From: Coprinellus micaceus | Lineage: Eukaryota; Basidiomycota; Agaricomycetes; Agaricales; Psathyrellaceae | Length of the DNA: 64,000 nt | Direction: 5' to 3' | Assembly (NCBI GenBank): GCA_951394405.1 | Contig: OX596334.1 | Span: forward strand, 620,001-684,000 | Shown: positions 38,426 to 44,705 of the stretch, piece after piece | Layout: each line of letters begins with the position of its first letter | Numbering within the stretch: position 1 is the stretch's first letter | Notes under the pieces: generated by a model | What the model was told of the DNA's origin: nothing | Seen by the model: only the letters and a program-made list of their open reading frames with translations | Databases searched by the model: none | Made by a program: the position numbers and the translations under genes

Positions 38426-38433
38426 ACCCCCCG
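37806..38433. other. 3' flank of NLR1, part of the duplication
   Basis: Non-coding; aligns by eye with 61168-61885 downstream of NLR2, including GTAAATAATAGG (37936 and 61343) and AAAGCACAACA near 38290 and 61749. It ends at the target duplication of the inserted element. Confidence 0.5.
38426..38433. repeat. 8-bp target-site duplication, left (ACCCCCCG)
   Basis: Perfect ACCCCCCG at 38426-38433 and again at 43961-43968, immediately outside the inverted repeats of the 5.5-kb element. The paralogous site at about 61885 (empty) has only one, diverged, CTCCCAAG. Confidence 0.9.
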
Positions 38434-38465
38434 TAGCGTTGGCGGGTTCTGCACGGTCAAAAAAT
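38434..38465 (+). repeat. Left terminal inverted repeat of the kinase/DDE element
   Basis: TAGC + GTTGGCGGGTTCTGCACGGT + CAAAAAAT. Matches the reverse complement of 43930-43960 over a 24-bp exact core plus most of the next four bases. Confidence 0.9.
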
Positions 38466-39390
38466 CCATTATCGAATATTGAGGTCGCGACTCTGGGTTC
38501 GATTCCGCGCAGGTACATGTATTTATCGCGCGTAGAATTGTGACTCGGACTGCTCATAGCCACTCTCAAGTGCTACGAAAATGTACACCTTTCTTAGAGC
38601 GAGACGGTCTAGCCTGTACGCTGTACACGGGATGCACAGCAATCGGCCTTCTGCCTCGCGCTGGGCGCCTATCTCCGCGATGGCGTCGTTTCAGAAGGCA
38701 CGAGGTAGAAGTACCTATCTCTTATGTATTTGACCCTTCGGACAATTTTCTAGTCCTCAAGGACTTGCCAATACGTCGCTCGGGGGTTCTAGCTTCAGGA
38801 ACCCCCTATTCTATCTGCTACCACAGGGATTAGTTAGCGGGAAAGCATGTATATAGCGGTTAGAAAGCTGCGTGGTGGTCTTCTGTAGTCACTTCTGAGT
38901 ATCCACCGAGACACAGCACTGTTCTATATGCTATATAAGATTGAAGAACAGAATCACGAACCTCGGAAGTGCCGGAGGGTGGCCCGAGTGCATGGTACCA
39001 TAATTTGAAGTAAATGGGAAGTCTATAGCGACAAGACATCGCGAGGCAAACGTAAAGCATATATGGATTCAGGTTACCCCCTTGAGGGTTCAGTAGTATC
39101 GCGATCATCCACACATCGGTCAGTTAGACTCGGTGTTCAATGGCAAAATAGAGTGTACCTCGCTTGTGGGCGCTTATTTGCGAATACACGACATACGCAA
39201 CGTAGGAGCTTGGTTTGAAAGGCAGAAGCGTCAATGTTTGCATTCTCAAAATCTCAAGGTGAGCCGCAATGCTGCCAATCACACTGGGAAGACCAAAGAG
39301 GACTGCCTCAAGGCTTGAAGTGCGAAATCCGGAAACTTGACGAAGTGCAACCCCACTAATGACCGGCAATGGTGCTTCGCACTTGGAGGG

Positions 39391-39397
39391 TATATAA
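39391..39397 (+). promoter_or_regulatory. TATA-box-like site upstream of the alpha-kinase gene
   Basis: TATATAA about 77 bp before the ATG at 39474, followed by a pyrimidine- and CCACCA-rich leader, a normal layout for a fungal core promoter. It lies inside the mobile element, so the element would bring its own promoter. Confidence 0.45.
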
Positions 39398-39473
39398 CCC
39401 GATGGTGTCTAGCCTTACAGCCAGCACCTCGCTACAACCACCACCAACAACATTAACTTCCCTACTCACTCCA

Positions 39474-41844
39474 ATGAGCGCTGCCACCACCGCCGAGGAC
39501 TCTGTTGGTCTGTGCTCGACTGCTGATGGTGATGGCTGTGGGGGCCTTTTCCCCTCCAAGACGGCAGCTGGTCTGTGTGGGAAGTGTAAGCGACTCTCCG
39601 GTGTTGCCCTAGACTCGGATGATTACAAGACCTACTCGGTGCGACTGCCCGTCCAATGCCCGTCATTGCTTTTCTGACTTATTCTGACTTGTTTGTCATC
39701 GTTTAGGCTTACAAGCAGTGCAGTGGATGCGGCGGGGCGTGGCGCAACATGCCGCATGACCAATGCGGACCCTGCAGAAGCAAGATGCCCCCACCCCCAC
39801 CTCCTGGTGGTAACAATGCAGGGCCACCTCCTCCTCCACCTACACAGGAACAGCAAGGTATGTTGGCTCTATGTTTGGAGCGCGGACAATTTCTGACAGA
39901 ACAAATAGTTATAGATCAGCGCGCAAAAGCGATTGAAGCTTCTCGCGCTGCCCGAGCTCACGCAATGGACTGCCGGACGAACAAACAACCCTCCCAGGCG
40001 CCGCAAACAACGCCTAACGTTACGAATTCGACAAGCGCATCCGAAGGGCTGGTTTACTTGATCTTTGAGGCTCGCATTCGGACGAAGGAATCGCAGAAGC
40101 CTGGGAAGGGTCCGAAAATCGAGGGTGATATGGGCAAATGGGGCAAGACGTATCCAAAGTCAAAGTACATGTCAGGTACGTCCACTGATACGTTCGTAAT
40201 TCCCTATAGTATCGTTACTAACATGTCGGTTCTTCTAGAAATTCTCGAGGACACCGTGAAGACAAATGTCAACGAGCACTGGGAGAAGCGAGAGGGGATG
40301 AGCTTGCTTACGTATGTCCTCCCCGCCGCCTGTATGGATTAGTTCTCACCGACATATACTCCAGAGATGAAGCCACCTTGCGCTGGAAGGGTAACCTCAA
40401 TCTTCCACCAGGCAGTATGAGCAGGACCCTCGGCGAGCTTGTGTTGGAGACTGTAGAGGGGACCAACGAAGCACTCTACCGCCCGACTACGACAACCGAG
40501 AGCAAAAAGCTCGCATCTGGAGGACGACCCCTCCTCCAACTCCCTTTAGAGGTCTATATTGACCGAATTACCGTATGTCATACTCCCACATGGTTTCAAA
40601 ATGCCGAGACTGATGTGAACTTTACCAAGTTTGACGAGCGCCGCCGAGCCTCCGTTGCGGCTATGCGTACAACCGCTTCTCGTAAGCGCAGTGGAACAGA
40701 GTCCCACCACCACGACACTACGAGAGCCAAACGCCAAGCTAGCGGAAACTCAGGTAAGGTGCTATTCCGGATCGTCACTTACCCCAATGTTGAACGCATT
40801 CTCTTTAGGCCATTCATCAACCCTCCCACTCGAAAATGTGCGCTTCGAAGTCGCCCATATCAAGATGTCCGAAGATACTGGTGATGTTGAAATAGCTTGG
40901 CCAGAGGATGCGGACACCGACACAGGCAAGCTTTCCCCTCAGCGTTTGAATCAAGGTGGCACCAAGTACGTCCATAATGTGGGTATCACTGTCTCTGAAT
41001 ATGTGGTGTGGCACTGACCTGGCACCAGCTCGAAGTTGGTGGTGATCTATTGGTTGCAAAACGGTTCTATAACATTGGTGGGGGTGTGAGTCCGACTGGA
41101 GATGAGAATGCCGAGATGTTGGAACTCGACTTACTCCGTTTGGAGAACCTCCGGTGGTACTTGCGACGATTCTTTGCTCGTTTGAACCAGGATGGCATTG
41201 AGCACGATTCCAGTGAGTGTCGCGTAGGCCCATACGCTACCTGATACTCACTCTTTACAGATATTGTGGTCGCTGACGCCTTCCTTATCCGTGAGGTTGG
41301 CCCACCATCGGAGGCATCTGGACTGGAACTCGGGGATGAGGCACACTGGCTCGTTGAGAACCGCCGCTCTCAAACAGTCCGCAAGTTCTGTGGCACACTG
41401 CAGCAGGGCCTTCCACCGAAGGACAAAACGGGGATCACCATAGGGGGTTTGATTCATTTCATGTTTGACGAGATGGAGACAGATTCCGTATTCGCCGACA
41501 TCCAAGGTCAGCTCTTGCCGAGACATGCACTGATGGATGGCACCTAGATTACTAACATATCTCCGTGGTTGCTGCAGGCTCAAAGGCCACAATCGATGGG
41601 GTCGAAACACTCGTTCTTTTTGATCCCATGAGTCACACTATTGACGGGTAAGCCTCTTCTCAATCCCAGGTCTCGATCTAACTTCCTTCACTCCAGGGAG
41701 TCTGGCGTCGGTGATCATGGGCAAGTGGGTATTGATGCCTTTGTGGCCCAGCACAAATGCAACTACGTCTGCCTTGGGCTGGGTCTCAAGCCAGTGAAGT
41801 CCAGCTCCGGCGAATCAGATGGCAGTGAGGAGGAGGATGATTGA
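39474..41844 (+). CDS. Alpha-type protein kinase with N-terminal cysteine cluster
   Basis: Exons: 39474-39638, 39707-39857, 39909-40175, 40239-40311, 40365-40572, 40609-40753, 40809-40969, 41029-41212, 41261-41506, 41578-41647 and 41697-41844, all phase-consistent; 605 aa. Residues about 35-75 carry three Cys pairs (LCGKCKRL, QCSGCGGAW, QCGPCRSK), a likely zinc-binding module, then a proline-rich linker. The catalytic domain fills the C-terminal half: GGDLLVAKRFYNI with the predicted ATP-binding Lys, VADAFLIREVG, WLVENRR, FMFDEMETDSVFADIQGS, LFDPMSHT, GVGDHGQVGIDAF, and the zinc-binding end HKCNYVC. These match the alpha-kinase fold (MHCK/eEF2K/ChaK type), which phosphorylates Ser/Thr. Substrate unknown. 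The tail is acidic. It lies 327 bp upstream of the DDE gene on the same strand, inside the same TIR element. Reading frame intact, which argues for recent function. Confidence 0.85.
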
Positions 41845-42171
41845 CGTGGCTGGCAGGATATGCCAAGTAGGGGGAGGTGATCATCACCGCATGGCAGCGT
41901 TGCCGCCGATCGAATCATTTCTGCTTCATTTCTTGCACAACTTCTTGCTAAGGGCCTGCCTCTAGAGCCGGTGTTAGCCGTTTCTTGAACATTAGACTCT
42001 CCTATTGTTGATACTTTCCATTTTTGATAGAGTTCTCCCAGATTCGATGTACTATTGAGCGTTTGATCCTCGGACCGGCTGTGTAGCCAACGTAGTATTT
42101 ATACCAAGTGTCCTGTATTGAAAAACAAAATCACCTCAATCTAACACTCCCACTGCTGAGTACTCTCCCCA
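41845..42171 (+). promoter_or_regulatory. Spacer between the two element genes with a TATA-like site
   Basis: 327 bp. TATTTATA at 42096-42103 lies about 70 bp before the ATG at 42172 and is followed by CT-rich sequence, so the DDE gene probably has its own promoter rather than being co-transcribed with the kinase. Confidence 0.35.
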
Positions 42172-43801
42172 ATGCCGCTCAACAATCCCAGTGGAAAGAA
42201 CGGATATGGCGTCAAGAATTGTATGTACCTGCATGAGGTCAGTTGGTGACGGCAACGTCGGACTCATTCCCTTGGTCTCGACAGATCCCCCTGACGACAT
42301 CCTGAGTCAAGCCTTGCACCAGTACGCAAAGGAGCAACTTCCTGTTGTTCAGCGGCTGCGCCGCCTCGAAATTGAACACAACTTACATATCAAGTACATT
42401 TTCTCAGCTCTTGCAACCCATCTCTCCTCAGTCAAAATCACTTACTGATATTTTCCCAGGGAGCGCAAGCTACATGAACTTAACCGGCAGTTTGGCGTCC
42501 CGAGTGTAAAAAAGCCCCCTTCCATTCCCATCGCAACTGCTCTGGTCATGGCAAAAGTCGACGGGGACCTCCACCAGAGGAACGGCACGGGGACCATCAA
42601 GGCCCAACTCGCGTGTGAAGGTCATATGATCCCAAGGTTAGCGGGCACTGCGACTCTCTGTCCGAAATATTATAAGCTGCTAACGTTGCGTAAATCTTAA
42701 GGGATCTTATTCGTGATATTCTTTCTCAGTATGCCCCAGAGGGTCTTGCCAGCCGGTTTCCAGGTGCCAATCGCATTGCACGATCACAGCTCCGTTCCTG
42801 TGGACCCAACCATCAGCACCACGCCGATGGGCATGAGAAGTTGAACGCCCAGGCTTTGGCAATGGGTGGGGTTGGACTGAATATCTACGGAATTAAAGAT
42901 CAATGGTCGTCGTTCATCATTCATCTTGTCGTTGTGCCTAATAACAGGCTCGCTGACACAATCGGCCATGTGTACCTCGATGCCATCGAGAAGCGGAAAG
43001 GTGAGCCCTACATACCTATTACTGTCCAGTATCATAAATCTGAGATCCTTTGCGCAGTGATCCCAGTGACAATGACCGTGGACAAGGGCAGTGAGGTTGG
43101 TTATCTTTTCGCCCATCAAACAGGCCTGCGGTACGTCACTGCTCCCTCTCAGGCTCGCGCGCGCTTATTTTGGCGGACCCACTATTTTTGTCCAGGGAGG
43201 TCTATGACATGGAGTACGATCTGGGCCACAGCCCCCCCGTCGTTCAGATCAAAAGCATCCATAATACTCCCATTGAAGGATTGTGGCATTGGTTTTTGGA
43301 GAAGACGGGGCGGAACGTCAAGGATATTATTGTCAGTGGTCATTTGGACGGTACTTACCATGCGCACAACGAATTACACAAGTGAAGTTTCTTTCTGTCA
43401 CTTGCACAATTATAGCACTCACAGAGCCTGTGTTCTTGCACAGGAAATTGTTCAACTGGCTGTGGCCCCAACTCCTTCAGCATACACTCAACGAGTTCGT
43501 CGACTACTGGAACAACCACCGGATCCGGCGTCAACCAAACAAGCCCAACATGTCTGGATCCACCCCACGTAACGGATACATCGCACCTGCTCCACCAGCT
43601 AGGGACGTCGGTATCAGGGTGGATCAGATTGTTATTGACGGTTTACGCAGTGACATCCCCACCTCTCGGGAGGAGAGTATGCAATGGGTTGATGGTGCAT
43701 TCGCAGCCGAGGCTCAATCCGCGTATGAGGGCGCTGGATCCCCGCCGATGAGACTGGCCAACGGATGGGAGATATTTGGTGACATGCTTCAGTACCTATG
43801 A
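42172..43801 (+). CDS. Integrase-like DDE protein (rve-type core)
   Basis: Exons: 42172-42220, 42285-42393, 42460-42636, 42702-43000, 43058-43130, 43196-43381 and 43444-43801, all phases agree; 416 aa. The N-terminal third is helical (PPDDILSQALHQYAKEQLPV; RRLEIEHNLHIKERKLHELN) and may be a helix-turn-helix DNA-binding region. The core has HADGHEKLNAQAL (first Asp, about residue 153), TMTVDKGSEVGYLFA (second Asp, about 220) and HNTPIEGLWHWFLEK (Glu, about 263), the order expected for retroviral-integrase-like DDE enzymes. It continues with LNEFVDYWNNHRIR, typical after such cores. These proteins are common in Agaricomycetes and often labelled 'integrase core domain'; their role is not established as far as I know. 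No reverse transcriptase, Gag or protease lies nearby, so this is not an LTR retrotransposon. Being intact and inside a TIR element, it is the best candidate recombinase for that element. Confidence 0.8.
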
Positions 43802-43929
43802 CATATGTACGTGATTTCAGGAGTTCCTAATGCAATAGAGGCTTGGGCATAGCGACTCGCGAGACGCTCAGAAGACTATCGTTGCGAAGGCGGTGCCTGA
43901 GAGAAGCGCATCACGCATCTGCCAACGCC

Positions 43930-43960
43930 ATTGTTTGACCGTGCAGAACCCGCCAACCTT
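43930..43960 (-). repeat. Right terminal inverted repeat of the kinase/DDE element
   Basis: Reverse complement reads AAG + GTTGGCGGGTTCTGCACGGT + CAAACAAT, the mirror of the left end, followed outward by the second ACCCCCCG. Confidence 0.9.
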
Positions 43961-44705
43961 ACCCCCCGAGATCGAGCCTGAGCCCCAGGATCTTGGAAAC
44001 GGCAGATCAATGCCATGCGAGCCAACGAAGTTTTGACTGCCTCAAGTTGACAAGCAAGATTCGCAGAAAAAAATACTTTTGAAACAGTGGGAAGGGCCTA
44101 GTATACTGTATCACCAGGACTTGGAGGATCGTAAGCATGGACAGAGCCAAGAGGAGAGGTAGGACGAGATGTGGGGGGCACTGAGGCTAGAGCATGCAAG
44201 GGTGATTGCTCAGGAAAGAGTTCTATAGTGGTAGGGATTGGGGGCGAGGAAAGCGTGGTAGGGCATCGGCGTGGGGAGAGAAGGGGGGCAGTCAAGCCAG
44301 ATGGCGAGGTACGAACACGAAGGTACAAGGGAAAGGCATCTGGGAGCCTCGTGAAACACTGGAAACACACAAAGTGATTCGCACTGAGTACGAAGCCTCG
44401 AGAAACGGGGGACGTGTATTCGGAGGCCCTGCCTTCACATAGCGCGATAGTAAGAGGGACCGACCCGTCCCAACAGCGTCACCTCTGAAGAGTGTCGACG
44501 CTCGTCGAAAAGCTGAAAGTGCAGGCGATCAGACCGACACCGACGCGATGGCCGAGGACCGAAGATCAAAGCGCGGCATCACCAACCGTCCTCTTCTCTC
44601 AACCACGACCGCCTCTTCTCTCTTGCACGTCCCTATCTCAACACCTCCCATGTTGACCTCAGTCAGCGCCTCCCCTTCCTTTCTCCTATCAAACCTCGGC
44701 TCACG
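43961..44705 (+). repeat. Segmental duplication copy A, right part
   Basis: Resumes similarity to the NLR2 flank directly after the insertion: GAGATCGAGCC at 43967 matches AAGATCGAGCC near 61892, and CTTTTGAAAC (44075) matches 61995. GGCCGAGG-CGAAGATCAAAGCGCGGC matches at 44550 and 62465. The match fades near 44700 and 62625. Confidence 0.75.
44532..44705 (+). repeat. Dispersed diverged repeat, copy 2
   Basis: Begins ACCGACACCGACGCGATGGC. Closest relative is the copy at 62446; more diverged relatives lie at 27206 and 51703. Confidence 0.5.

Follow-up and report, generated by a model that had tools for sequence, protein, structure and literature searches.

An IS3EU-type candidate transposon of Coprinellus micaceus carries an alpha-kinase gene beside its transposase gene

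Does an alpha-kinase gene that lies with an integrase-like gene between inverted repeats belong to the host or to a mobile element? The question is raised by a 5,528-bp element in a stretch of 64,000 nucleotides of Coprinellus micaceus DNA (contig C1:620001-684000, hereafter the window, from a genome of 50.3 Mb in 17 contigs). To our knowledge, few DNA transposons encode a protein kinase. Our analysis indicates that the element is very probably a DNA transposon, complete in structure, that belongs to the IS3EU superfamily in the broad sense, wherein the DDE protein is the transposase and the alpha-kinase a standing second component. Three features point to this placement, namely TA..TA at the ends, a DDE core of integrase type and an alpha-kinase as partner.

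Boundaries and genes of the element

An initial annotation of the window had described an identical 24-bp inverted-repeat core, a perfect 8-bp duplication and two intact multi-exon genes on one strand. The features are as follows, in window positions.

38434..43961, + strand: whole element, 5,528 bp, TA...TA termini
38427..38433, unstranded: left target-site duplication, CCCCCCG, 7 bp
43962..43968, unstranded: right target-site duplication, CCCCCCG, 7 bp
38434..38461, + strand: left terminal inverted repeat (kinase-side end), TAGC plus the 24-bp core
43934..43961, - strand: right terminal inverted repeat (transposase-side end), TAAG plus the 24-bp core
39474..41844, + strand: alpha-kinase gene, 11 exons, 601 amino acids (aa), PF02816
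39474-39638, 39707-39857, 39909-40175, 40239-40311, 40365-40572, 40630-40753, 40809-40978, 41029-41212, 41261-41506, 41578-41647 and 41697-41844, + strand: alpha-kinase exons
42172..43801, + strand: DDE integrase-like transposase gene, 7 exons, 416 aa, PF24764, proposed triad D154, D220, E263
42172-42220, 42285-42393, 42460-42636, 42702-43000, 43058-43130, 43196-43381 and 43444-43801, + strand: transposase exons

The ends read TAGCGTTGGCGGGTTCTGCACGGTCAAA on the left and TAAGGTTGGCGGGTTCTGCACGGTCAAA on the right (other strand), each flanked by CCCCCCG. The arms (38433-38465 and 43930-43962) are 91% complementary and the 24-bp core is indeed identical. A 21-bp core was found at two places in the window and nowhere in 100 shuffles, and a genome-wide search with the 24-mer core gave 25 matches at up to three mismatches and 0 for the reversed control; on these two controls a chance origin of the inverted repeat was rejected. 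ACCCCCCG is present on both sides of the element. The 8-bp reading, which placed the end at 43960, was nevertheless rejected: related copies show that the element runs TA...TA and ends at 43961, and therefore the duplication is the 7-bp CCCCCCG, the eighth base being the element's own final A.

Both gene models read through without an in-frame stop, all introns are GT..AG, and 327 bp separate the two coding ends, so the annotation of two intact genes on one strand stands. For the kinase, a 10-exon model (620 aa) gave way to the 11-exon model, one more intron having been recognized from its homologue in a sister copy. The protein matches PF02816 (E 1.4e-19, scanned with the 620-aa model) and MHCK-A (E 1.2e-5), and carries the alpha-kinase motifs AKRF, ADIQG, LFDPM and GVGDHG. 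Its full length retrieved no scoring relatives, perhaps because a proline-rich stretch swamped the search; the kinase domain retrieved six.

The second protein matches PF24764 (rva_4, 'Integrase core domain'; E 1.3e-11). Its D-D-E triad is conserved and the predicted fold of its closest relative is of the integrase/TnsB type, which supports the initial proposal of this protein as the recombinase. In the Pfam scan no hAT or KDZ model matched either window protein, the genome itself not having been searched for hAT or KDZ, and Kyakuja elements (KDZ) use another transposase. Inspection of the translation by eye, without a motif search, showed no HHCC motif before the DDE core, and NCBIfam gave nothing useful. 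The element's list of open reading frames showed no third gene, including TET, the other frames not having been scanned against Pfam.

Kinase-transposase pairs and short copies in the genome

A genome search with the window transposase found three loci, namely the window, C11 and C7:2832307-2833788, and an alpha-kinase gene adjoins each of them. At C11:134160-139641 the gene order, the strand and the kind of ends are those of the window, and a 7-bp duplication is present. At C7:2828343-2834187 the two genes are divergent, the inverted repeats span 291 bp (286 identical), the ends read TACGG..CCGTA and CCCCTG stands on both sides. The adjacency that the initial annotation had asked to see again thus recurs twice, and its proposal that the two genes form one mobile unit is supported. 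Between the lineages of the window and C7, the transposases are 38% identical (156/409) and the kinases 28% (157/555).

Window and C11 proteins are 52% (kinase, 304/584) and 67% (transposase, 277/415) identical. Silent sites are saturated (pS ~0.82), whereas amino-acid-changing sites differ at 0.32 in the kinase and 0.24 in the transposase; thus selection conserved both proteins as the two copies grew apart. Read from sequence, this comparison shows that purifying selection has kept the kinase as well as the transposase.

Searches with two kinase proteins and PF02816, made exon by exon so that the counts are lower bounds, found four alpha-kinase loci: the window, C11, C7 and a decayed locus at C1:961931. 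All four lie in such elements or a relic. The relic (C1:961931-963740) is a decayed relative of the window element: its left end and the 5' portion of its kinase gene survive, with 75% identity at the DNA level and a stop codon in frame. The initial suggestion that transposition accounts for the number of kinases fits the one genome searched here. Profile searches were incomplete, as PF02816 recovered 2 of the 4 kinase loci and PF24764 none of the 3 kinase-linked transposases. PF24764 did match seven further integrase-like loci (C7:3578739, C8:2040421, C1:4288966, C2:2043994, C10:960472, C9:2923105 and C9:2806059). Within the 5.5 kb read at C1:4289303, no kinase was found. As to other species, a search of viral contigs for the adjacency gave 53 pattern matches and no relative, and the locus tags of kinase and transposase relatives within one species (H1R20, D9619) have non-adjacent numbers and lend the linkage no support.

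A degenerate search with 27 terminal positions gave 28 ends genome-wide versus 0 for the reversed control. They make up 13 complete copies and two lone ends (C1:963714 and C2:1610648), the first of which belongs to the decayed relative with its broken kinase fragment. Both ends start with TA in all 13 copies, and each copy has one TAGC-type end (TAGT in C7:3098516) and one TAAG-type end. Two are long, the window element and C11:134160-139641 (5,482 bp), each with the kinase followed by the transposase. The other 11 are short (747-1,692 bp, the longest being a short copy with another nested inside). The initial annotation had named copies without either gene, alongside a hAT element sharing the ends, as evidence against a kinase-transposase unit; 11 of the 13 do lack both genes, whereas both long copies carry the pair.

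The core comes in two subtypes, GGGTTC and GAGAAC, which are the same at both ends within each copy, and with each subtype go one long copy and a separate set of short ones. Of the 13 copies, 12 lie between exact 7-bp duplications. The duplication is directly visible where the nested copy at C8 is compared with the uninterrupted sequence C7:3098516-3099340. The nested copy and the C6 copy share 99.8% identity, and therefore the family has moved recently. In one orientation, all 12 duplications of the window lineage start with C or T (10 with C), and G is the last base in 7; this amounts to a weak preference for targets of type C.....G.

Relation to IS3EU and other known elements

The initial annotation knew of no transposon family built from this pair of genes, yet such a family is in print. 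According to the available part of Kojima 2025 (PMC12730594), every TET-bearing IS3EU family has its TET/JBP gene flanked by a transposase gene on one side and an alpha-kinase gene on the other, these two being oppositely oriented; such families are known from Pucciniales (rusts) and Tuber (truffle), and those of Pucciniales have 6-bp duplications and TAYGG..CCRTA ends. Within the literature accessible to us, beyond which lay Repbase, supplements and most subscription papers, Kojima 2025 was the only source found to name the pair. The window element has in common with these families a transposase and an alpha-kinase in one inverted-repeat element, TA..TA termini and a short duplication. It differs in its tandem order of kinase then transposase, its TAGC/TAAG-GTTGG.. 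ends and its 7-bp duplication, and no TET gene was seen. Judged by this tandem layout, end sequence and gene content, it is best filed outside the TET-bearing IS3EU group. The C7 element shares with it the kinase and transposase families and the TA..TA termini, and fits the printed IS3EU plan in its divergent genes and its ends, although no TET was seen there.

Other systems resemble the element in part. IS3EU/GingerRoot elements share TA..TA, given as invariable in the part of PMC10045372 (2023) available, and the DDE core, but their duplications are usually 6 bp. Styx of Zymoseptoria (PMC10853768) is a fungal element in which an IS3EU-type transposase is accompanied by other genes; its ends are 36 bp, a 6-bp duplication is used there, and the word 'alpha' has 0 occurrences in the main text. 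Kyakuja elements share 7-bp duplications in Agaricomycetes but have CA..TG termini and lack inverted repeats (available part of PMC12730594). New here relative to the literature are the tandem layout, the TAGC/TAAG ends, the 7-bp duplication and the attached short copies.

The length of the duplication was assessed within the genome. Among 30 TACGG-type ends listed, 2 belong to the C7 element and 24 form 12 short copies with both ends read, the 4 lone ends being left out. These short copies with TACGG..CCGTA ends have 7-bp duplications in 8 cases and 6-bp in 4; with the C7 element, the family has 7 bp in 8/13 and 6 bp in 5/13. Therefore, IS3EU-type elements in this genome make staggers of 6-7 bp. 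The window lineage, with 7 bp in 12/12 measurable copies, differs mildly from this family (8/13; Fisher p 0.039).

Several observations weigh against placing the element in IS3EU with the kinase as a standing component. Its duplication is 7 bp, where 6 is usual in IS3EU (available part of PMC10045372), and its TAGCG/TAAGG ends are unlike TAYGG..CCRTA, which the C7 element matches. Its transposase was compared with that of the canonical-looking C7 element (38% identical, as above) and not directly with Repbase IS3EU transposases. A search with the C7 transposase returned the same three loci plus weaker ones at C1:4289303 and C6:192946, and the two of the seven further PF24764 loci that were read (5.0 and 5.5 kb), one of them being C1:4289303, have neither a kinase nor TA..TA ends with a duplication, the best chance pairing of ends agreeing at 13/24 positions. 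One of the 13 complete copies (C9:2818853) has no duplication. Short and long copies have only ~29 bp of each end in common, and the mover of the short copies is thus inferred. Both structure models are of relatives and not of the window proteins; that for the kinase matches alpha-kinases but is weak (pLDDT 55.2). The C7 kinase model is rough, made of 15 homology-driven pieces, and the saturation of synonymous sites permits no exact ratio of nonsynonymous to synonymous rates (dN/dS).

Mechanism and role of the kinase

DDE enzymes in general pair the transposon ends, cut them and transfer the strands with a fixed stagger. The 416-aa transposase would accordingly bind the 28-bp ends, pair them, cut at TA..TA and join the cut ends to the target at points 7 bp apart on the two strands. 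The same enzyme, or one closely related to it, may also move the short copies, because the end subtypes match. The alpha-kinase would most likely be a trans-acting helper that phosphorylates either the transposase or a host protein involved in chromatin or repair; that it acts on the transposase or on repair seems to us an evenly balanced proposition. We infer every step of the kinase's action, as well as present activity of the window element.

We tentatively propose, short of even confidence, that fungal IS3EU elements need the alpha-kinase in order to transpose, which would make this a kinase-licensed transposon: the kinase occurs in each long copy found, is selected across distant lineages and does not depend on TET. 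On this reading the genome's alpha-kinases, and possibly the expanded sets in rusts and mushrooms too, would belong to transposon machinery and not to host signaling. The alpha-kinase family is highly expanded in rusts, with no cause stated in the available part of PMC4469406. If the kinases are indeed transposon parts, many fungal 'signaling' genes need re-annotation. A complete and apparently intact element of the IS3EU kind is now available in a mushroom-type fungus, and the kinase's benefit to it may now be testable; the genome offers a compact test set of three long kinase-transposase elements, which show two layouts, and 23 short copies (ends read), which fall into two end families.

Alternatively, the kinase may be an anti-silencing factor that phosphorylates histone or heterochromatin proteins and so keeps the element expressed, as a counterpart of the TET/JBP dioxygenase. 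The available part of Kojima 2025 (PMC12730594), which sets TET/JBP between the other two genes, argues that it counters methylation silencing, and CxxC-like cysteine pairs in the kinase N-terminus of both tandem copies (window and C11) could bind zinc and target the kinase. However, the kinase is kept in elements with and without TET, which makes one shared pathway unnecessary, and we regard this role as unlikely, though worth serious attention. It is distinctly improbable that the kinase is a host-helping passenger dispensable for transposition. Short copies do spread without it, if proteins come from elsewhere; yet the gene is kept in all three long elements found, across two distant transposase lineages, is reported from rusts and truffle as well (available part of PMC12730594), and was found in this genome at no locus outside such elements or their relic.

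A kinase-transposase locus that is domesticated and fixed and has lost its mobility would agree with the distance to the nearest other long copy (52% and 67% aa identity, as above) and with the lack of any recent sister found, but is highly improbable given the perfect duplication and ends identical over 24 bp, which suggest a fairly young insertion, and the recent movement seen in the 99.8% alike short copies. That the ends belong to another superfamily and enclose two genes captured by chance is scarcely credible: although 11 of 13 copies lack both genes and fungi do have hAT7 and Kyakuja elements with duplications of 7 bp (available part of PMC12730594), the two long copies agree in their gene pair and its order and include a DDE gene, the Pfam scan of the two window proteins, to which the search for these families was confined, gave no hAT or KDZ model, hAT was suggested by an 8-bp duplication that is 7 bp, and the CA..TG ends of Kyakuja without inverted repeats contrast with TA..TA and 28-bp inverted repeats here.

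One further feature lies near the kinase-side end.

38495..38506, + strand: 12-mer GGGTTCGATTCC, resembling a tRNA T-arm or RNA polymerase III B-box, also found at the kinase-side end of the C11 copy and of the C1:961931 relic

A tRNA origin of the left end was rejected, as neither ARAGORN nor Rfam gave a match, and the 11-mer GGTTCGATTCC of this motif has no match at up to one mismatch in the C7 element or in any of the 11 short copies. In all three copies of the window lineage that carry it, the 12-mer lies 62-82 bp from the kinase-side end (position 82 in C11), in surroundings that differ.
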